In this document: in pieces, positions 371-56,300 of the stretch
Numbering within the stretch: position 1 is the first letter of the stretch
How the letters are laid out: each line of letters opens with the position of its first letter
From: Limibacillus sp.
GTDB lineage: Bacteria; Pseudomonadota; Alphaproteobacteria; Kiloniellales; CECT-8803
Assembly (NCBI GenBank): GCA_037379885.1
Contig: JARRJC010000021.1
Location: forward strand, 1 to 62,541
Reading direction: 5' to 3'
Length of the DNA: 62,541 nt
The notes under the pieces: model-generated
Told to the model about the DNA's origin: nothing
Database searches by the model: none
The model's input: the letters and a program-made list of their open reading frames with translations, nothing else
Made by a program: the position numbers and the translations under genes

Positions 371-445
<75 letters not shown>

Positions 446-480: not shown

Positions 481-1677
481 TCACGCGACCGCGCCGGCTG
501 TCCGGCTGGCTTGCGCTTCTGCCTTCTCCGCCAGGCGCTCTTGCAGGTGCGGGCGCAGCAGGCAGCCGGTGAGCGGCGTGCCGTCCCAGTCGAGCCAGCG
601 GTGGTTCTCGTAGTCGTAGAGGCGGCAGGTGCGCATGCAGTGCAGGTACCAGCCCGGCGTCCAGCGGGTCGAGACGGCCTGCTCCCCCATGATCTCGTTC
701 AGCCGGGCCTGGGCCTTGCCCGCCCGGTAGAAGGGGATGTTGGGGTTCACGTGGTGGGCCGGGTGCTCGTGGATGTGATAGCTGAGCGCCTGATACCACT
801 TGGGAAAGACGATGTGGGCGGAGATGTCTTCCTGACGGAAGAGATGGCGGTCCGGCGCACTGTCGAACCAGGGAATCTCAGGGTGGCTGTGCTGCATGTA
901 GGTGGTGAAGCTGAAGAGGTGCACCGCCACGTAGAAGGGCAGAAGGAAACCCAGCAGCACCGCCGTCAGGCTCCCGGTCCCTGAGTAGATGGGGGCGGCG
1001 GCCAGCAGGCCGACGAAACCCACCGTGTAGACCATCAAGAGCCCGAAGTGGAACCAGGCCCTCTTATGTAGCCGCTCCGGGAAATAGCGGGTCGGGAAGA
1101 GCTTGAAGAGGGGAAAGCGCTCCAGGAGGTAGTAGAGCCCCATGCCCAGCGGGGTGCGGTAGACCTTCTCCAGCACCTGGCGCCAGCGCGGCAGCGCGTC
1201 GAACTCCGCCTTCGAGAAGGGCTTGTAGAGATCGCGGTGCGGGTCGTTGGTCGCATAGTGGTGCGACTTGTTGTGGTCGTAGAGCCAGAGCCGGTAGTTG
1301 AACAGGGTCGGCATGAACCCCAGGATCGAAATCAAGCGGTTGAGCTTCTTCGAGGTGGTGGTGTTGCCGTGGCCCGCGTCATGGGCGATGACCATGAGGG
1401 TCGCCTGCTTGAAGCCCGCGGCGACGCCCGCCGCCACCTTCATCCAGAGATCGGGCAGGAACAGCACCCCGGCGATCGCCGCGACCCAGAGCCCGTAGTC
1501 GAACAGGAAGAGGGCGACGCCCAACAGGGTATTGGGACGCTTGAAGCGCGCCATTTCGCTGCGCACCTCGGAATAGTCCACATCATGGCCGCGGACGGTC
1601 CCGGCGGTCGCGCCGACGCCGTCACGCGCCACCGCCTCACGCCATTGCTGGGATCCTGGAATCGCTCTGGTCGCCAA
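481..1677 (-). CDS. Membrane fatty acid desaturase
   Basis: A 398-residue integral membrane di-iron enzyme of the fatty acid desaturase/hydroxylase superfamily. The three histidine boxes are visible: HDAGH at 99-103, HNKSHH at 135-140 and HIHEHPAHH at 301-309, with an extra HSH at 263-265. Hydrophobic segments lie near 50-95, 208-230 and 238-258. It would introduce a double bond or hydroxyl into an acyl chain or isoprenoid-like substrate using O2 and an electron donor; the substrate cannot be told from sequence. The furthest upstream start is a TTG with only weak Shine-Dalgarno complementarity, so the N-terminus is uncertain; Met42 is an alternative. The gene stands alone downstream of nadX. 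Confidence 0.85.
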   Translation of the reverse strand: MATRAIPGSQQWREAVARDGVGATAGTVRGHDVDYSEVRSEMARFKRPNTLLGVALFLFDYGLWVAAIAGVLFLPDLWMKVAAGVAAGFKQATLMVIAHDAGHGNTTTSKKLNRLISILGFMPTLFNYRLWLYDHNKSHHYATNDPHRDLYKPFSKAEFDALPRWRQVLEKVYRTPLGMGLYYLLERFPLFKLFPTRYFPERLHKRAWFHFGLLMVYTVGFVGLLAAAPIYSGTGSLTAVLLGFLLPFYVAVHLFSFTTYMQHSHPEIPWFDSAPDRHLFRQEDISAHIVFPKWYQALSYHIHEHPAHHVNPNIPFYRAGKAQARLNEIMGEQAVSTRWTPGWYLHCMRTCRLYDYENHRWLDWDGTPLTGCLLRPHLQERLAEKAEAQASRTAGAVA

Positions 1678-1783
1678 ATCTCAACTCACGTCTTGTTCGT
1701 CAGGAACCTTCAAGGGCTCCTTTGATAAGCCAGAATGATTAAACAGCTCATTAATTAAAAATTTCTTTAAATTGGACAGAAAC

Positions 1784-2599
1784 TCAGCTGCCCACCTGAA
1801 GGGTGGCGGTGAGCCGGCGCAGGGCCGCGATCACCGACAGCGCGGTGATCTTGCCCGTGCGCGGATTCTCAGCCGAGGGAATGTTCTCGATGGTCATGGT
1901 GAGCCGCGCGCTGTCCGATTCGAGCGTGATGGTGTGGGTGTTGCGCGTGACCGAGGGGTCGGCCCAGATTTCCAGGGTGGTCTCGTCCGGGCCGATGCCG
2001 GCGAGGCTCAGCGCCGCGGCCACGTTGACGTTCGCGGGAAAGCCGATGGCGCCGTCGCGCGCGCTGCCCTTGAAGACCAGCTTGGCCTCGGTCAAGCCCT
2101 CGACCGAGATGTCGTTCTCCAGAAGATGCGGCGCGCCCGCGAGGCCGCCCGGCGGCTTGCGCGTCACCAGCCGCACGCTCTCGATCTCTCCCTCCGCCGC
2201 CGCCCTGACGGCGTCCAGCCCGAGCAGAGCGCCGGTCGGCACCAGGATCTTCGCGCCGGTCTCCTTGGCGCGGTCGATCAGCGCCATGCGCGGCAAGAGC
2301 GCGCCCACGGAAATGGGAACGAAGATGCGGCCCTGCTCGATGGCGCTGCCGGCCAGTTGGTCGAAGACCTTGGCGGGCGCGCACTCCACCACCACGTCCG
2401 CCTGCCCGGCGAGCGCCTCCAGGTCCAGGACCGGAACGGGTTTCTTGAAGTCGGCCATGTTCGCCTTGGCCTTTTCGTGGTCGCGCGCGGAAACGGCGAC
2501 CAGCTCCAAGCCCTCGATCCCCTGGTCCAGGCGGCGGCCAACGGCCTGGCCGATGGCGCCGAAGCCGCCCAGGGCGACGCGAAGCGGTTTGGTGGTCAT
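1784..2599 (-). CDS. nadX: L-aspartate dehydrogenase (NadX/DUF108 type)
   Basis: A 271-residue NAD(P)-dependent enzyme that oxidises L-aspartate to iminoaspartate (or oxaloacetate plus ammonia), a possible entry to NAD synthesis. The N-terminal Rossmann motif GGFGAIGQAVG starts near residue 10. The middle segment has the family's VVVECAP and PTGALLGLDA stretches, and the C-terminal TRNTHT holds the His expected at the active site. The chosen ATG at 2599 follows a GAGGGGA ribosome site; the longer frame upstream is not needed. The length matches the family (about 265-270). No quinolinate synthase gene lies nearby, so a catabolic or poly-hydroxyalkanoate-linked role remains possible. Confidence 0.85.
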   Translation of the reverse strand: MTTKPLRVALGGFGAIGQAVGRRLDQGIEGLELVAVSARDHEKAKANMADFKKPVPVLDLEALAGQADVVVECAPAKVFDQLAGSAIEQGRIFVPISVGALLPRMALIDRAKETGAKILVPTGALLGLDAVRAAAEGEIESVRLVTRKPPGGLAGAPHLLENDISVEGLTEAKLVFKGSARDGAIGFPANVNVAAALSLAGIGPDETTLEIWADPSVTRNTHTITLESDSARLTMTIENIPSAENPRTGKITALSVIAALRRLTATLQVGS

Positions 2600-2720
2600 G
2601 GTCACGGGTCCCCTCGTCTGGAATCGGTCATGGCTCTGGCCGCCAAGGAGAGCCCGGCGGCCGCGCGACTGCAACAGCTTTTGAAAGTAGAAGGGCGCTA
2701 CGGCGCTTCCAGTGGATCGA

Positions 2721-3152
2721 TCAGTAGCTGGCCACCCAGGCGGCAAAGCCCGCCGCCGTCAGCAGCAGCACCGAGCTTCCGGCGATCTGCATGCGGCGTT
2801 GCAGCGCGGCGCCGCCGCCGGTCTGCGCCAGCCGGAAGGGGCTGTTGGGCGCGTCCAGCAGCGTACGCAGCTGCGCCATGTCGCGCTTCACGCTCGGCGG
2901 CGCGGACTGAAGGAAGGCGAGCGCGCGCTCAGTCCGCCGGAAGCCGATCCCCTCTTCACTAGACATCGGCTCGATCACGCCCAGCGCCAGACAGCGGCGC
3001 AAAGTCTGCGCGTCGATCGGATCGCCCTTGGCGTCAGCCAGGATCAGCAGTCCCGCTTCGTCCTTCGCCACATGGGTCAGCCAATCCAGGTCCTGTTCCC
3101 GAAGGACCGAATGGGCCGCCTCCTCCCCTTTGATATTGCGGTCGTTACTCAT
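2721..3152 (-). CDS. Hypothetical protein with C-terminal membrane anchor
   Basis: A 143-residue protein of unknown function. The first 115 residues are soluble, charged and predicted helical. The last 20 or so (SSVLLLTAAGFAAWVAS) form one hydrophobic segment, so it is probably tail-anchored with the bulk in the cytoplasm. I recognise no catalytic motif or named domain. The start is the ATG at 3152 with a modest GGGAAT site upstream. It lies just upstream of nadX on the same strand (121 bp apart), while its own upstream side is a long AT-rich gap. Co-transcription with nadX is possible. Confidence 0.6.
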   Translation of the reverse strand: MSNDRNIKGEEAAHSVLREQDLDWLTHVAKDEAGLLILADAKGDPIDAQTLRRCLALGVIEPMSSEEGIGFRRTERALAFLQSAPPSVKRDMAQLRTLLDAPNSPFRLAQTGGGAALQRRMQIAGSSVLLLTAAGFAAWVASY

Positions 3153-3383
3153 CGCCAGATTCCCGCCCTGTTTCAGCAGTGGCGAGATTTTATCTCAAAC
3201 TTTATCGAAAGATCGACGCTTCATGCGTAAGCAGAGCTTCAGCCATTAGGACTTTGTTAATAAACCCTAATTTTTTCAGCGAGATATTTGGCGGCACTTC
3301 TCTTTGGACAACCATATCTTGTGCCTGTTGCCCAGAAGTCACGCACAGCGGGCTTCTGCTTTTTGGCCATGACTTCATAATCC

Positions 3384-3399
3384 TTAACGATAGATTAAC
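3384..3399. promoter_or_regulatory. CtrA-like box TTAA-N7-TTAAC
   Basis: TTAA (3384-3387), seven bases, then TTAAC (3395-3399) match the full CtrA recognition site of alphaproteobacteria. It lies in an AT-rich intergenic region about 175 bp upstream of the 34-codon ORF, and about 230 bp upstream of the divergent gene starting at 3152. This is a motif match only; no ctrA gene is in the window. Confidence 0.5.
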
Positions 3400-3448
3400 A
3401 AATAATCTAACGATTTCAGATATTTAATGGACATTTTTTAATTACAAT

Positions 3449-3476
3449 TTGAGAGAAATCTGTTAGAAAGAATCAT
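3449..3476 (+). promoter_or_regulatory. Candidate promoter of small-ORF unit
   Basis: TTGAGA (3449-3454), a 16-bp spacer and AATCAT (3471-3476) resemble a sigma-70 type -35/-10 pair. It would start transcription near 3482, at the foot of the first leader hairpin. An alternative is a CtrA-dependent start nearer 3430, using the box at 3384 and the AT-rich stretch around 3418-3427. Weak consensus, placed by position. Confidence 0.35.
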
Positions 3477-3480
3477 TGCG

Positions 3481-3526
3481 CTGGCCGCCAAGGGACGGGG
3501 GGCCAGCCGCCCGGAGCCTCCGGGCG
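3481..3526 (+). promoter_or_regulatory. Two leader hairpins before the small ORF
   Basis: Hairpin A pairs CTGGCC (3481-3486) with GGCCAG (3501-3506). Hairpin B pairs CGCCCGGAG (3508-3516) with CTCCGGGCG (3518-3526), a perfect 9-bp inverted repeat around one base. They sit side by side between the putative promoter and the ribosome site of the 34-codon ORF, so the transcript would carry a structured 5' leader. The second hairpin has no U-tract, so it is not an intrinsic terminator. Confidence 0.6.
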
Positions 3527-3573
3527 AAATGCCGCGCCACTTTTGTCGAGACCCAAAAGGGGAGGAACGGATC

Positions 3574-3678
3574 ATGGCACGCCAAGTAGTGACGATCGTC
3601 ACGGCGCCGTACAGGCTCTACAACAACTTCATGTGTCTTCGCGCCGTCAACCGGCGGCTGCGCGGCGCAACGGCCTAA
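3574..3678 (+). CDS. Putative 34-aa basic small protein
   Basis: A short ORF (ATG 3574, TAA 3676-3678) with a well-placed ribosome site (GGGGAGGA about 8 bases upstream). The product begins MARQVVTIV and ends RRLRGATA. It has six arginines, one cysteine and two tyrosines, and net charge about +6. The N-terminal third is beta-branched and hydrophobic, the rest basic. Support comes from context: candidate promoter, two leader hairpins, good ribosome site, and a 13-bp-stem terminator 34 bases after the stop. Alternatively the transcript is mainly a regulatory RNA. I recognise no family. Confidence 0.55.
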   Translation: MARQVVTIVTAPYRLYNNFMCLRAVNRRLRGATA

Positions 3679-3711
3679 CAGTTACAGTCTTCCGATTGGT
3701 GGGGGAGAGGA

Positions 3712-3755
3712 AGGGCCGGCGACCCGGACAACGGCGGGGTCGCCGGCCCTTTTTC
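3712..3755 (+). terminator. Strong intrinsic terminator, partly bidirectional
   Basis: A perfect 13-bp stem, AGGGCCGGCGACC (3712-3724) pairing with GGTCGCCGGCCCT (3738-3750), with a 13-base loop and followed by TTTTCC. It ends the small-ORF transcript. Read on the other strand it lies just beyond the stop of the protease gene (3772) and could serve that gene too, although the T-run is shorter there. Confidence 0.9.
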
Positions 3756-3771
3756 CTGTCTGAAGGCGCTC

Positions 3772-4560
3772 TCAGCGCGCGCCCATCGCCGTCAACTGAG
3801 AGAACGGCACGGCCAGGCTGAAGGTCCCCTGATCGGCGATCATGAATCCGACGACGATGGCGACGGGGCGGTAGCCCCCCGCCGTTTCCATGAACACCGG
3901 CCCGCCCGATCCGCCTTCCACGGTATCGCAGTCCAGCAACCAGATTTTGAGCCGCGCTTCCCGGAAGCTGCATCCGGCATGGCGGGACAGGCGGTAGCGC
4001 CGGTCCTTGGCGTAGAAGGCGTAGTCGATCCGCGTGCCCTGTTCGGGAACCACGGAAAGAGGCTCAAGCGGCTCCTGCTCCAACGCCCGGTCCAGGCGGA
4101 TGAGGGCGATGTCGCGGTGCCGCTCGGCCAGGTCCCGCTGCGCGCTCAACTCGAAACCCGGATGCAAGAGAACCTCGCGCGCCTTGGCGTGGCCCAGGTA
4201 GCCGTCCAGGTGCCGCCCGGCGACGAAGTGGATGTCCGAAAGCGCGCGCAAGCGGCCGCTGCCCGGCCAGACCAGACAGTGCGCCGCCGTCACGACCAAG
4301 TCCGGCGCGATCAGGGTTCCCGTGCAGAAGACCTCCCCGGCCACATTGACCTTGCCGAGCGAGCGCCAGGGCGCGGCGGTGGCGTCCAGCATCACCCGGT
4401 CGTCTTCCCCGATGATGCCCTTGCTGACGGGAGAGGCCGCCGACCACCGGCCGGTAAAGAGGATCGCGAGCGCCAGGAGCGCGGCGGCGCAGACCGGCAA
4501 GGAGGCAAGGCGCGAGAAGATGCGACGCTGCTTTGCGAACGACCGCGCTCTACCAATCAT
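3772..4560 (-). CDS. Exported trypsin-like serine protease
   Basis: A 262-residue S1-family (V8/trypsin-like) protease. The catalytic triad is readable: His94 in TAAHC, Asp150 in DIALIRL and Ser218 in GGSGGP. A hydrophobic segment at about 20-37 after a basic N-terminus is a signal peptide or signal anchor, so the enzyme acts in the periplasm or outside. Cys79/Cys95 beside the active-site His and Cys197/Cys211 could form two disulfides. There is no PDZ domain, unlike DegP. Its start overlaps the 3' end of the upstream small gene by 11 bases, so the two are probably co-transcribed. The substrate is unknown. Confidence 0.85.
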   Translation of the reverse strand: MIGRARSFAKQRRIFSRLASLPVCAAALLALAILFTGRWSAASPVSKGIIGEDDRVMLDATAAPWRSLGKVNVAGEVFCTGTLIAPDLVVTAAHCLVWPGSGRLRALSDIHFVAGRHLDGYLGHAKAREVLLHPGFELSAQRDLAERHRDIALIRLDRALEQEPLEPLSVVPEQGTRIDYAFYAKDRRYRLSRHAGCSFREARLKIWLLDCDTVEGGSGGPVFMETAGGYRPVAIVVGFMIADQGTFSLAVPFSQLTAMGAR

Positions 4561-4828
4561 CTTCGGCCCGAGGATCTTTCCGTTGTTCGCGAACCCCGGT
4601 GCTCTGGTTCAGGTCGTCGAAGATCCCCATGATCGCCGTCTTGTTCAGCACGATGATCGAGGTCTCGTCGTTCTCGAAGGGAATGAACATCCGCTCGTCG
4701 TTCAGCAGGTCCAACACCCGGTCGCCCTGGCGCAGGAAGATGCGCCCCTTGACCTCCGATCCGTCCGTCAGCTTGACCCGGACCAGGCGGGAGACTCGGT
4801 CCATATGCTGTTCACTTTCATACCTCAT
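4550..4828 (-). CDS. Small conserved beta-rich protein (DUF6812-like?)
   Basis: A 92-residue protein with a central stretch RVKLTDGSEVKGRIFL...RVLDLLNDERMFIPFE...IIVLNKTAI, typical of a small conserved bacterial family I loosely associate with DUF6812. Its function is unknown to me. No membrane segment or cysteine is present. The start is ambiguous: the ATG at 4828 is given, the ATG at 4804 (MDRVSRL) is nearly as good, and a TTG lies at 4855. It precedes and overlaps the protease gene, which suggests one transcript starting in the short divergent gap at 4829-4972. Confidence 0.6.
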   Translation of the reverse strand: MRYESEQHMDRVSRLVRVKLTDGSEVKGRIFLRQGDRVLDLLNDERMFIPFENDETSIIVLNKTAIMGIFDDLNQSTGVREQRKDPRAEDDW

Positions 4829-4972
4829 GCGGCGAACCCCGGCTGATTGTCGCAATCAGTAATAGTTACACAAATAGCGGGTTTTTGTCCCTGTTTCGCT
4901 GAAGGCTTGCCGCAGGGTGCTTTTTGGCGGGTAATAGGTATCTACGATACCGCTTTCGGGAGAAGGTCCCTG

Positions 4973-38006: not shown

Positions 38007-38022
38007 TTAAAGATCAGTTAAC
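38007..38022. promoter_or_regulatory. CtrA-like box TTAA-N7-TTAAC
   Basis: TTAA (38007-38010), AGATCAG, TTAAC (38018-38022) match the CtrA full site. It lies 83 bp upstream of the cell-wall hydrolase ATG, a position compatible with a CtrA-activated promoter. It is the second such box in this gap. Confidence 0.55.
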
Positions 38023-38031
38023 GGACGTCCT

Positions 38032-38065
38032 CCTCTCCCATGATCCGAGAGGTGGGCGTTTTTTT
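38032..38065 (+). terminator. Hairpin with T-run in hydrolase leader
   Basis: CCTCTC (38032-38037) pairs with GAGAGG (38047-38052). After TGGGCG comes TTTTTTT (38059-38065). It could end an upstream small transcript, or act as an attenuator in the leader of the cell-wall hydrolase mRNA, which starts 40 bases further on. The six-base gap between stem and T-run weakens the terminator reading. Confidence 0.4.
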
Positions 38066-38104: not shown

Positions 38105-38710
38105 ATGACGACATCGCCATTCTTCGCCCTGACTCATTCGGCCAAGGCCGGTCCGATCGCGCTCGCCGCCGCGATCCTGGCCCTGGGTATCTGCGTCACC
38201 TTTTCGGGCGCGACCGCCAACAACAAGAACAACTCCGAGGAAGGCATTATCGCCACCGAGGAACTGAACTGCCTGGCCATGACGCTCTATCACGAGGCGC
38301 GCGGGGAGCCCGACGAGGGCAAAGTCGCGGTCGGCCACGTCGTGATGAACCGCGTTGCCGACGAGCGCTATCCCGACACCGTTTGCGGCGTGATGAAGCA
38401 GGGCGGGGCCGAAACGCTCCACCGCTGCCAGTTCTCCTTCTGGTGCGACGGCGTCAGCGACAACCCCGCCAATCCGGAGGCCTGGTCCCGTTCCGAAGCG
38501 ATCGCCCGCGCGATCTATTGGGGCTACAGCCAGGACCCGACCGAAGGCGCGCTCAGCTACCACGCCGATTATGTCGACCCGAACTGGGGTCCCCGGCTGG
38601 TGCGCGGGCCGCAGATCGGCCGTCACATCTTCTATCACCCCGTCGACGGCATCCGCCGTTCGGAAAAGAACGCAGGGGCGCAGCCGGGCGCACAGACCGT
38701 CCGCCGCTGA
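38105..38710 (+). CDS. Exported cell-wall hydrolase (SleB/CwlJ type)
   Basis: A 201-residue protein of the Hydrolase_2 family, which cleaves peptidoglycan (lytic transglycosylase or muramidase type). An N-terminal hydrophobic segment (about 15-35) is a signal peptide or anchor. The domain begins with ELNCLAMTLYHEARGEPDEGKVAVGHVVMNR (in part, 53-82), where Glu64 of YHEARGE is the likely catalytic acid, and continues with CQFSFWCDG. Four cysteines (56, 94, 108, 114) may pair. In this non-spore-former it would serve growth, division or flagellar assembly. The CtrA-like boxes upstream suggest cell-cycle control. Confidence 0.85.
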   Translation: MTTSPFFALTHSAKAGPIALAAAILALGICVTFSGATANNKNNSEEGIIATEELNCLAMTLYHEARGEPDEGKVAVGHVVMNRVADERYPDTVCGVMKQGGAETLHRCQFSFWCDGVSDNPANPEAWSRSEAIARAIYWGYSQDPTEGALSYHADYVDPNWGPRLVRGPQIGRHIFYHPVDGIRRSEKNAGAQPGAQTVRR

Positions 38711-45702: not shown

Positions 45703-45978
45703 CTAGTAAAGTCCGCCGCCGAAGCGGGTCATGCGCGCCAGTATCTGGCGGCGTCGGCTTTCGAAATACTCCTCACCCGAGGAGCTGCTTTCGAACTCAT
45801 TGGCCAGACCGTGCAGAGCGTCGGCCAGACGGCGCAGCCGGGCGACCACCTCTTGACGGCGGGCCCCCCGCCGGATCATGCCCTTCAAGACGGAATCGGC
45901 CAGCCCCGCACCGTCGATATGCTCGAGCGCGCGGGTCAGAGGCTGTGCTTCCTGGTCTCGTGACTTAACCTCAATCAT
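45703..45978 (-). CDS. Hypothetical 91-aa protein behind a CtrA-like box
   Basis: A 91-residue soluble, Arg-rich and helical protein, with leucine-rich heptads (VVARLRRLADALHGLANEF, about 44-62) suggesting a coiled coil or helical hairpin. The C-terminus is RQILARMTRFGGGLY. I do not recognise a family. The ATG at 45978 lies 40 bp from a near-perfect CtrA box, so the gene may belong to the cell-cycle or motility programme. It is convergent with the preceding operon. Confidence 0.65.
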   Translation of the reverse strand: MIEVKSRDQEAQPLTRALEHIDGAGLADSVLKGMIRRGARRQEVVARLRRLADALHGLANEFESSSSGEEYFESRRRQILARMTRFGGGLY

Positions 45979-46018: not shown

Positions 46019-46035
46019 TTAACGCTTCTTTAACC
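46019..46035 (-). promoter_or_regulatory. CtrA-like box TTAA-N7-TTAACC
   Basis: TTAA (46019-46022), CGCTTCT, TTAACC (46030-46035), followed by AT, give the extended consensus TTAA-N7-TTAACCAT. It lies 40 bp upstream of the 91-aa gene on the minus strand and 48 bp from the 3' end of the gamma-glutamyltransferase gene. It is the best CtrA match in the window. Confidence 0.6.
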
Positions 46036-54750: not shown

Positions 54751-56300
54751 TGCATTGGATCATCGCACCGGTGCTGCTGCCGGCCCTGCTCGCCCCCATG
54801 ATCGGTTTCGTCATGCGCCACGACATCGTGCTGGCGCGCGCCGCCTCCTTCGCGGGCACGGCCTGCCTCGTCGGCATCTCGGCCTACTTGCTGTCCATGA
54901 CCCTGGGTGGGGAGACCTTCGTATACCGCCTGGGCGACTGGCAGCCGCCCTTCGGCATCGTGCTGGTCCTGGACCGGCTGTCGGCGCTGATGGTGCTCCT
55001 CACCTCGGTGCTCGCGCTGATCGTGCTCTGGCATGCGGCCGCGACCGGCTGGGACTCGCGCGGACGGCACTTCCACGCCCTCTTCCAGTTCCAGTTGATG
55101 GGCGTGGCGGGCGCCTTTCTGACCGGGGACGTCTTCAACCTCTTCGTCTTCTTCGAGGTGCTGCTGATCGCCTCCTACGGGTTGATGATCCACGGCGGCG
55201 GGCAGCAGCGTCTCGGCGCCGGGCTGCAGTACATCGTGATCAACCTAGCGGGCTCGACCCTCTTCCTGTTCGCGCTCGGCGTCCTTTACGCCACGACCGG
55301 CACCCTCAACCTCGCCGATCTCACCCTGCGCATGCAGGAGATCGCGGTCGAAGACGCGGCCCTGGTCCGGGTCGCCGCCATGCTGCTGATGATCGTCTTC
55401 GCCGTGAAGGCGGCGCTCTTCCCCGTCCAGTTCTGGTTGCCGGGCACCTACGCCAACGCGCCCGCCCCGGTCGCCGCCCTTTTCGCCATCATGACCAAGG
55501 TCGGCGCCTACGCCATCATCCGCGTCCATGGCAGCGCCTTTGGGCCGGGGATCGAAGCGACCGACGGACAGAGCGCGGCCTGGCTGTTCCCCGCCGCGAT
55601 CGTGACCATCGCCATCGGCGCCGTGGGCGTCCTGGGGGCAAAACGGCTGCTGCCGCTGATCTCCTTCTCCGTGGTGGGATCGATGGGCACGCTGCTGGTC
55701 GCCGTGGCGGCCTTCACGCCGGAAGCGACCACGGCGGGCCTCTACTATCTGCTGCACTCGACCTTCGCCGCCGCCGCGCTGTTCCTGCTCGCCGACCTGG
55801 TGTTGGCGCGGCGAGGCAGCGAGGCGCTCTCGCTGCTTCCGGCCACGGTGCAGAACGGTCTCTTCGCCGCGCTGTTCTTCGCGGCGGCGATCGGCATGGC
55901 CGGGATGCCGCCGCTCAGCGGCTTCCTGGGCAAGCTCTTCGTGCTCGACACTCTGCGCGATCCGGGAACCATCGTCTGGGCCTGGTCGAGCGTCCTGATC
56001 GGCTCGCTGCTCACCATCGTCGGCTTCGCGCGCGCCGGCAGCATCCTGTTCTGGAAATCCACCGCGCCCGAAGCCGGCGCGCCGCCCGCGGTGCAAGAGC
56101 CAGAGGGAAGAGCGGAGCCGGAGGCCCCGGCGCGCGCCGGAGTGGCCCAGCTTGTCCCGACCTTCGCGACGCTCGCGATCCTCGCATCGCTCGCGGTCTT
56201 CGCCGGACCGGTTGTCGATTTCCTGGAGGCGACCTCGCTGCAGCTCTACGACCGCTCGAGCTATATCGAGGCCGTGCTCGGCCAGAGCGGAGGGAACTGA
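54750..56300 (+). CDS. mnhD: Mrp antiporter subunit D
   Basis: A 516-residue NuoN/NuoM-like membrane subunit with about 14 helices. FFEVLLIASYGLMIHGG carries the conserved TM5 glutamate and FAVKAALFPVQFWLPGTYANAPAPVAALFA the key lysine of the proton channel. A polar insert (about 435-460) lies before the last helix. The ATG overlaps the mnhC stop by one base. Confidence 0.94.
   Translation: MHWIIAPVLLPALLAPMIGFVMRHDIVLARAASFAGTACLVGISAYLLSMTLGGETFVYRLGDWQPPFGIVLVLDRLSALMVLLTSVLALIVLWHAAATGWDSRGRHFHALFQFQLMGVAGAFLTGDVFNLFVFFEVLLIASYGLMIHGGGQQRLGAGLQYIVINLAGSTLFLFALGVLYATTGTLNLADLTLRMQEIAVEDAALVRVAAMLLMIVFAVKAALFPVQFWLPGTYANAPAPVAALFAIMTKVGAYAIIRVHGSAFGPGIEATDGQSAAWLFPAAIVTIAIGAVGVLGAKRLLPLISFSVVGSMGTLLVAVAAFTPEATTAGLYYLLHSTFAAAALFLLADLVLARRGSEALSLLPATVQNGLFAALFFAAAIGMAGMPPLSGFLGKLFVLDTLRDPGTIVWAWSSVLIGSLLTIVGFARAGSILFWKSTAPEAGAPPAVQEPEGRAEPEAPARAGVAQLVPTFATLAILASLAVFAGPVVDFLEATSLQLYDRSSYIEAVLGQSGGN

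Follow-up and report, generated by a model that had tools for sequence, protein, structure and literature searches.

A probable CtrA-linked small transcription unit with a 34-codon reading frame in a draft Limibacillus genome

The 62,541-nucleotide stretch of DNA that we analysed (the window) contains, at positions 3384–3755, what is very probably a stand-alone transcription unit, predicted from an ordered set of signals on the plus strand. We hold the unit to be real and neatly built and probably under the control of CtrA, and its function is proposed here from its sequence features. The reading that we tentatively put first, at somewhat less than even chances, is a small mRNA, stand-alone, lineage-specific and controlled by CtrA, that encodes a basic helical peptide. 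The window belongs to a draft genome of 3.1 Mb in 128 contigs, whose tmRNA fits the alphaproteobacterial Rfam model at 269.4 bits. The unit occupies a gap between a 143-aa gene and a trypsin-like protease gene, AT-rich in its left part and GC-rich in its right part. The box, hairpins, ribosome-binding site, ORF and terminator are present in the sequence at the positions given below; the promoters are candidates.

371–442, plus strand: tRNA, 3 kb from the unit, with minus-strand gene models in between
Start 3152, minus strand: 143-aa gene, left flank of the gap
3384–3399, plus strand: full CtrA-type box TTAA-N7-TTAAC (TTAACGATAGATTAAC), exact match
3384–3411, plus strand: candidate CtrA-type promoter TTAACG-16-TCTAAC, hexamer score 8 of 12, predicted start ~3418
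3395–3424, plus strand: alternative promoter TTAACA-18-GATATT, 9 of 12, predicted start ~3431; the box's right half supplies its −35 hexamer
3449–3476, plus strand: alternative downstream promoter TTGAGA-16-AATCAT, 9 of 12, predicted start ~3483; overlaps a GANTC site at 3470
3480–3507, plus strand: hairpin 1, GCTGGCC(n)GGCCAGC with a G-rich loop, −19.0 kcal/mol
3508–3526, plus strand: hairpin 2, perfect 8-bp stem CGCCCGGA/TCCGGGCG with a 3-nt loop, abutting hairpin 1, −14.6 kcal/mol
3537–3561, plus strand: weak hairpin 3 (CUUUUG/CAAAAG and two outer pairs), −6.6 kcal/mol, extending to the first G of GGAGG
3561–3565, plus strand: ribosome-binding site GGAGG, 8 nt 5′ of the ATG at 3574
3574–3678, plus strand: 34-codon ORF (MARQVVTIVTAPYRLYNNFMCLRAVNRRLRGATA), with six Arg and no Asp, Glu or Lys
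3713–3754, plus strand: intrinsic terminator, perfect 13-bp GC-rich stem with an 11-nt loop (stem-loop 3713–3749) and TTTTT; 3700–3755 folds at −40.7 kcal/mol
3772–4560, minus strand: trypsin-like protease gene (Pfam Trypsin), right flank of the gap

Much of this arrangement had been described in an earlier sequence-only reading, and most of that description is borne out: the CtrA-like box is an exact TTAA-N7-TTAAC at 3384–3399, promoter-like hexamers are found at 3395–3424 and 3449–3476, the good ribosome site and 34-codon ORF are in place, the 13-bp terminator stem is followed by its T-run, and the product is basic, its charged residues including six Arg and neither Asp, Glu nor Lys.

Exact matches to TTAA-N7-TTAAC number three in the window against a mean of 0.00 in 100 shuffles. 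The whole genome holds ten, two of which form one overlapping site, leaving nine distinct sites, and a control pattern read in reverse occurs nowhere in the same genome. CtrA itself is encoded (NF045991 equivalog, 393.5 bits against a cut-off of 350; L036:556–1320), and the nine perfect boxes have the following neighbours.

ctrA on one side (NF045991 above cut-off) and the DksA gene on the other
ftsZ (TIGR00065)
A SPOR-domain protein gene
A Hydrolase_2 cell-wall hydrolase gene, window 38105–38710
A MarR-type regulator with an LdtR match below cut-off
A CBS-domain protein gene, at its 3′ end
A MaoC-like gene with a divergent 161-aa ORF
A gamma-glutamyltransferase gene, likewise at its 3′ end, and next to it a 91-aa ORF
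The present site, 3384–3399

Since ctrA is encoded and perfect boxes stand by ctrA, ftsZ and cell-wall genes, we regard the CtrA-like box at 3384–3399 as a credible signal in this genome. In another genome of the same family (G001) the reverse-read control and the box are equally frequent, 13 and 14, and the specificity of the pattern therefore does not extend to every genome.

The two other boxes of the window have surroundings of their own. One, within 38007–38065, lies upstream of the hydrolase gene (38105, plus strand), and between the two is a hairpin with TTTTTTT (38023–38065) at which another short plus-strand RNA may end; this hairpin is unlisted in the consensus scan, and Rfam gave no match to it at E ≤0.5. 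The other (46019–46034) falls between the 91-aa ORF (45703–45978, minus strand, no Pfam match) and the 3′ end of the gamma-glutamyltransferase gene. The sequence GGACATTTT occurs twice in the window against 0.25 expected, at 3429 and 46046, each time shortly 3′ of a CtrA-type box. Just 5′ of the present box, at 3333–3364 on the plus strand, a hairpin CAGAAGTC...GGCTTCTG is followed by TTTTT; it is not in the consensus scan and may mark where a further short transcript ends, or act as an insulator.

Between 2400 and 5000 there are two promoter-like hexamer pairs where 0.3 are expected, and both fall within the unit. A start at ~3418 would place the 5′ base of the box at about −34. In Caulobacter the 5′ base of a full CtrA motif is found at about −35 where the start site is activated, and a position of −14 accompanies repression (PMC4287350). 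The geometry from box to start can thus fit CtrA activation, as judged from the predicted position; candidate starts including 3431 and 3483 score equal to or above 3418. The choice of promoter sets the predicted length of the transcript, ~272 nt from 3483 and ~337 nt from 3418, so that the ~275 nt proposed earlier agrees with the downstream start. Every gene model from 481 to 4855 is on the minus strand while the plus-strand terminator is strong, and for this reason a plus-strand transcript beginning in the gap, between 3153 and 3700, is the simplest and an economical reading of the region.

The leader of the predicted transcript is strongly structured. The two hairpins had been described as adjacent and perfect; both are there and they abut, and hairpin 2 is perfect, but the stem of hairpin 1 consists of 7 bp and a further 2 bp beyond a 1 × 1 mismatch. 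Abutting hairpin pairs arose in 1 of 1000 shuffles of 3476–3712, and the window holds two pairs of this kind, the other (55788–55836) being inside a gene model. The whole of 3476–3757 folds with z = −3.4, none of 200 shuffles being as stable. Around the ribosome site, positions 3559–3561 are predicted to be paired at ≥0.91, 3562–3564 to be mostly free and 3565 to be paired at 0.66–0.69; for the T and G of the start codon the predicted pairing is 0.85–0.99. An RNA thermometer was considered and rejected, the pairing of the ribosome site being constant at 0.46–0.50 from 25 to 42 °C. The terminator stem is the longest perfect stem among the window-scan matches listed. Its minus-strand tail, TTCCTCT, also passes a loose rule (4 T in 7), so that the convergent protease gene may use this hairpin too; an unbroken T-run is found on the plus strand only.

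The coding evidence for the ORF is moderate. Of 2000 shuffles of 3418–3753, 35 contained an ORF that began with ATG, ran to ≥30 codons and had a ribosome-site word ahead of it, and the 10,647 bases of the window that lie outside gene models hold four short ORFs led by a ribosome site (30–46 codons), the others being of 30, 37 and 46 codons. The codon score exceeds that of the ORF's own shuffles (P = 0.0086, 5000 shuffles), with GC1/2/3 of 0.59/0.50/0.82. Per codon the score is 0.03, far under the 0.21–0.68 of accepted gene models, which were themselves accepted by score. Taking these together with the fold, we predict translation at about even odds. On the question posed at the outset, whether the locus gives a small protein or a regulatory RNA, the evidence is divided: the codon signal and the well-spaced ribosome site speak for the former, but the start codon is predicted to be mostly paired, and for neither the peptide nor the RNA did the searches below give a convincing relative. 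A longer reading of 49 aa, beginning at 3529, was rejected: its added part scores −7.4 bits and is not coding-like.

The peptide is predicted to form one helix over residues 2–33 (AlphaFold2 single-sequence; mean pLDDT 83.9, pTM 0.40), which is weak evidence because short helices are easily predicted. Its highest 19-residue Kyte–Doolittle mean is 0.69 and its overall mean 0.09, values too little hydrophobic for a membrane span. A type I toxin is a small hydrophobic membrane peptide with an antisense RNA, and that identity was rejected on the same 19-residue maximum and the six Arg. DUF1127 proteins are arginine-rich and have small transcription units of their own. Kinship with them (PF06568) was rejected, since no Pfam family matched the peptide at E ≤10. 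The likeness is that they too are short alphaproteobacterial proteins (PMC12501420). Two other genes of the genome exceed the PF06568 cut-off. Upstream of DUF1127 genes in two genera (L076 and L077) we noticed by eye a common stretch, aaaaactaatccg...gatgaaataacatcgtttgt, which is perhaps a regulator site.

Relatives of the peptide were sought in several collections, the genome counts including the window's own genome. Among 58 relatives, at E up to 1, there were two non-self matches, both judged to be chance on a reading of their DNA: L004 (E = 0.195) lies in a 196-aa open frame, and L005 (E = 0.333, or 6e-4 if its 9-kb stretch alone is searched) has a stop within the frame. The 61 genomes of the order gave no non-self match at E 0.05. 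The 385 genomes of the class gave three at E 0.01, all rejected after inspection. Two of these, L062 and L063 (E = 0.005), come from two genomes of one genus and match 21 residues touching a tRNA-Leu gene, and were judged to be chance; in L062 a Phage_integrase gene adjoins the tRNA-Leu gene. The third, L064, has an internal stop. In the GTDB contigs none of 346 pattern matches was confirmed (49-aa query, 8-residue seeds). The match in viral contigs, L017, was put down to chance, consisting mainly of PKGEERIM from the upstream 49-aa reading and lying within a 1458-aa ORF. Among phages a single phage matched, in two records and at E = 6, and plasmids gave no peptide match. Neither the 34-aa nor the 49-aa form matched a Pfam family at E up to 10, with HMMER filters that drop most matches above ~0.1, and the peptide had no match in PHROGs at E up to 10.

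The RNA was searched for in the same spirit. Within its own genome, at E up to 0.001, 3470–3755 found itself and the palindrome of its own terminator alone, and a repetitive extragenic palindrome (REP/MITE) was rejected on the lack of further copies. No Rfam family reached its gathering cut-off over 3200–3900, the top score being asX1 at 23.9 bits against 70. In the class, with two candidates scored for each genome, 37 of the 385 genomes gave matches at E up to 0.01, at 41 non-self places in all, each of ≤44 bases and 24 of them within query positions 159–206. This exceeds the ~4 genomes expected, an excess that we put down to GC-rich sequence. Nineteen of the 41 were read: 14 lie inside open frames of at least 100 aa in the phase of the peptide, and in none of the 19 do the flanking residues continue the peptide (L045, L048, L058 and L061 being incompletely recovered, and the read ungapped). 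Two, L043 and L044, have LRAVKRRL and RAVNRRL in short frames, resembling residues 22–29 of the peptide. A covariance model, R1, built from the window's own sequence alone and run with strict filters (≤67 candidates scored per genome), gave seven non-self matches across the 61 genomes of the order, all weak. The best (L066, L067 and L068) are in or across long coding frames and were rejected; another, L071 (E = 0.054), is in a non-coding stretch beside tRNA-Met.

Conservation of the ORF or hairpins in close relatives had been set beforehand as the test that could refute the unit, and it came out negative in every search: we found no convincing relative of peptide or RNA, by these sequence comparisons, in the order (61 genomes), the class (385), GTDB contigs, phages, plasmids or viral contigs. 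This is a weak test, and the absence says little about function, because the searched set had no congeneric genome and the neighbouring genes are lineage-specific too. The 143-aa neighbour has no match in G001, the family's only other genome in the searched set. The protease has none there either, in a search run without a positive control, and none in GTDB contigs or viral contigs. Within the collections searched, the neighbourhood of the unit thus appears lineage-specific. A DUF6812 gene at 4550–4855 is repeated, with 72% identity, at the end of another stretch of the genome (G000:C77, a contig end), and both G001 and G032 contain relatives of it. In G001 it sits between genes with Pyr_redox_2 and 2-oxoacid_dh domains, and in the 20-kb stretch around it none of nine other tested window proteins has a match.

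The mechanism that we propose for the small mRNA is as follows. Phosphorylated CtrA would bind the box at 3384–3399 and activate the adjoining promoter, and the RNA would be produced while CtrA is active, which in Caulobacter is in the predivisional cell. The RNA, of ~270–340 nt, would have its 5′ end shielded by the two very stable hairpins and its 3′ end set by the strong terminator, and the weak third hairpin and the pairing of the start codon would tune translation. The 34-residue, strongly basic helical peptide might then bind an acidic partner, whether RNA, the surface of a membrane, or a protein of the envelope or of division. We infer that CtrA binds, where transcription starts, that the ORF is translated, and all that concerns the action of the peptide.

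A close rival is that the transcript is a CtrA-controlled non-coding regulatory RNA, acting by base-pairing with cell-cycle mRNAs in the manner of CcnA, with the 34-codon ORF incidental; we hold this to be slightly less likely than the small mRNA. CcnA (cell-cycle non-coding RNA A) of Caulobacter crescentus is a non-coding RNA of 182 nt within the replication origin, whose CCCC loop base-pairs to GGGG in the leaders of ctrA and gcrA (PMC8959179). Compared by description and not by sequence, the two are alike in being small intergenic alphaproteobacterial RNAs behind a CtrA box, with stem-loops, and differ in that a Shine–Dalgarno-led ORF is present here whereas CcnA is non-coding. In PMC4287350, six non-coding RNAs are among the 183 cell-cycle-regulated Caulobacter start sites with a CtrA motif, full or half motifs lying 5′ of the RNAs as here; those start sites were experimentally mapped and the present one is predicted. 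For such an RNA the promoter and terminator evidence is equal to that for the small mRNA, and the stable 5′ hairpins with their G-rich loop, the fold of the whole RNA against shuffles, these Caulobacter precedents, the low codon score and the mostly paired start codon would all suit it. On the other side, the spacing of the ribosome site and codon usage above shuffles favour translation, the CcnA pairing core CCCC is absent from 3418–3753, and 20 comparisons with the 5′ regions of ctrA, ftsZ, dksA, the SPOR-domain gene and the hydrolase gave no clear pairing. The best of the 20 was ftsZ with the unfolded 5′ end of the RNA, 1 of 100 shuffled targets being as good, and the next had 6 of 100. A dual-function RNA, pairing with cell-cycle mRNAs and also encoding the lineage-specific basic helical peptide for division or the envelope, seems to us decidedly unlikely.

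It is also unlikely, if less so, that the small unit is free of CtrA control and starts from the 3449–3476 promoter, the box serving the leftward 143-aa gene or being incidental. That promoter would start the RNA at hairpin 1 and yield ~272 nt, the box would then be ~100 nt upstream of the 3483 start and beyond the typical CtrA activation distance (PMC4287350), and in G001 the reversed pattern is as common as the box. In the present genome, however, the box is rare and often beside known CtrA targets, and promoter-like hexamers are rightly placed next to it. Very unlikely, in our view, is a locus with no functional product at all, its transcript being a remnant or an insulator within a rapidly changing gap, and its hairpins and terminator serving solely to stop transcription around the convergent protease gene. 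Conservation was not found, the protease and the 143-aa gene are likewise without a match in the nearest genome, and the terminator hairpin is just 3′ of the protease gene and passes the loose tail rule on that strand; against this, the promoter, ribosome site, ORF and terminator form a complete and ordered set of elements that are rarer in shuffles. Because the start codon is predicted to be paired and the hairpin could serve the protease gene, the small-mRNA reading is weighed down a little and the readings as a non-coding RNA or as no product are slightly raised.

The unit had been put forward as the window's best candidate for something new. Non-coding RNAs with CtrA motifs are already described in Caulobacter (PMC4287350 and PMC8959179), and the unit would belong to this known class of CtrA-regulated small transcripts, compact and testable and not extraordinary on present evidence. 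A literature search limited to open papers found no description of the locus itself. Should the small-mRNA reading be wrong, the locus is another unstudied intergenic transcript. Should the dual-function reading be true, it would connect a taxon-restricted gene straight to the core cell-cycle circuit of alphaproteobacteria. If the small-mRNA reading is right, the unit would offer, with one box, one RNA and one short ORF, a compact case for deciding between RNA, peptide or both, and it would show the conserved CtrA cell-cycle circuit recruiting lineage-specific small genes.
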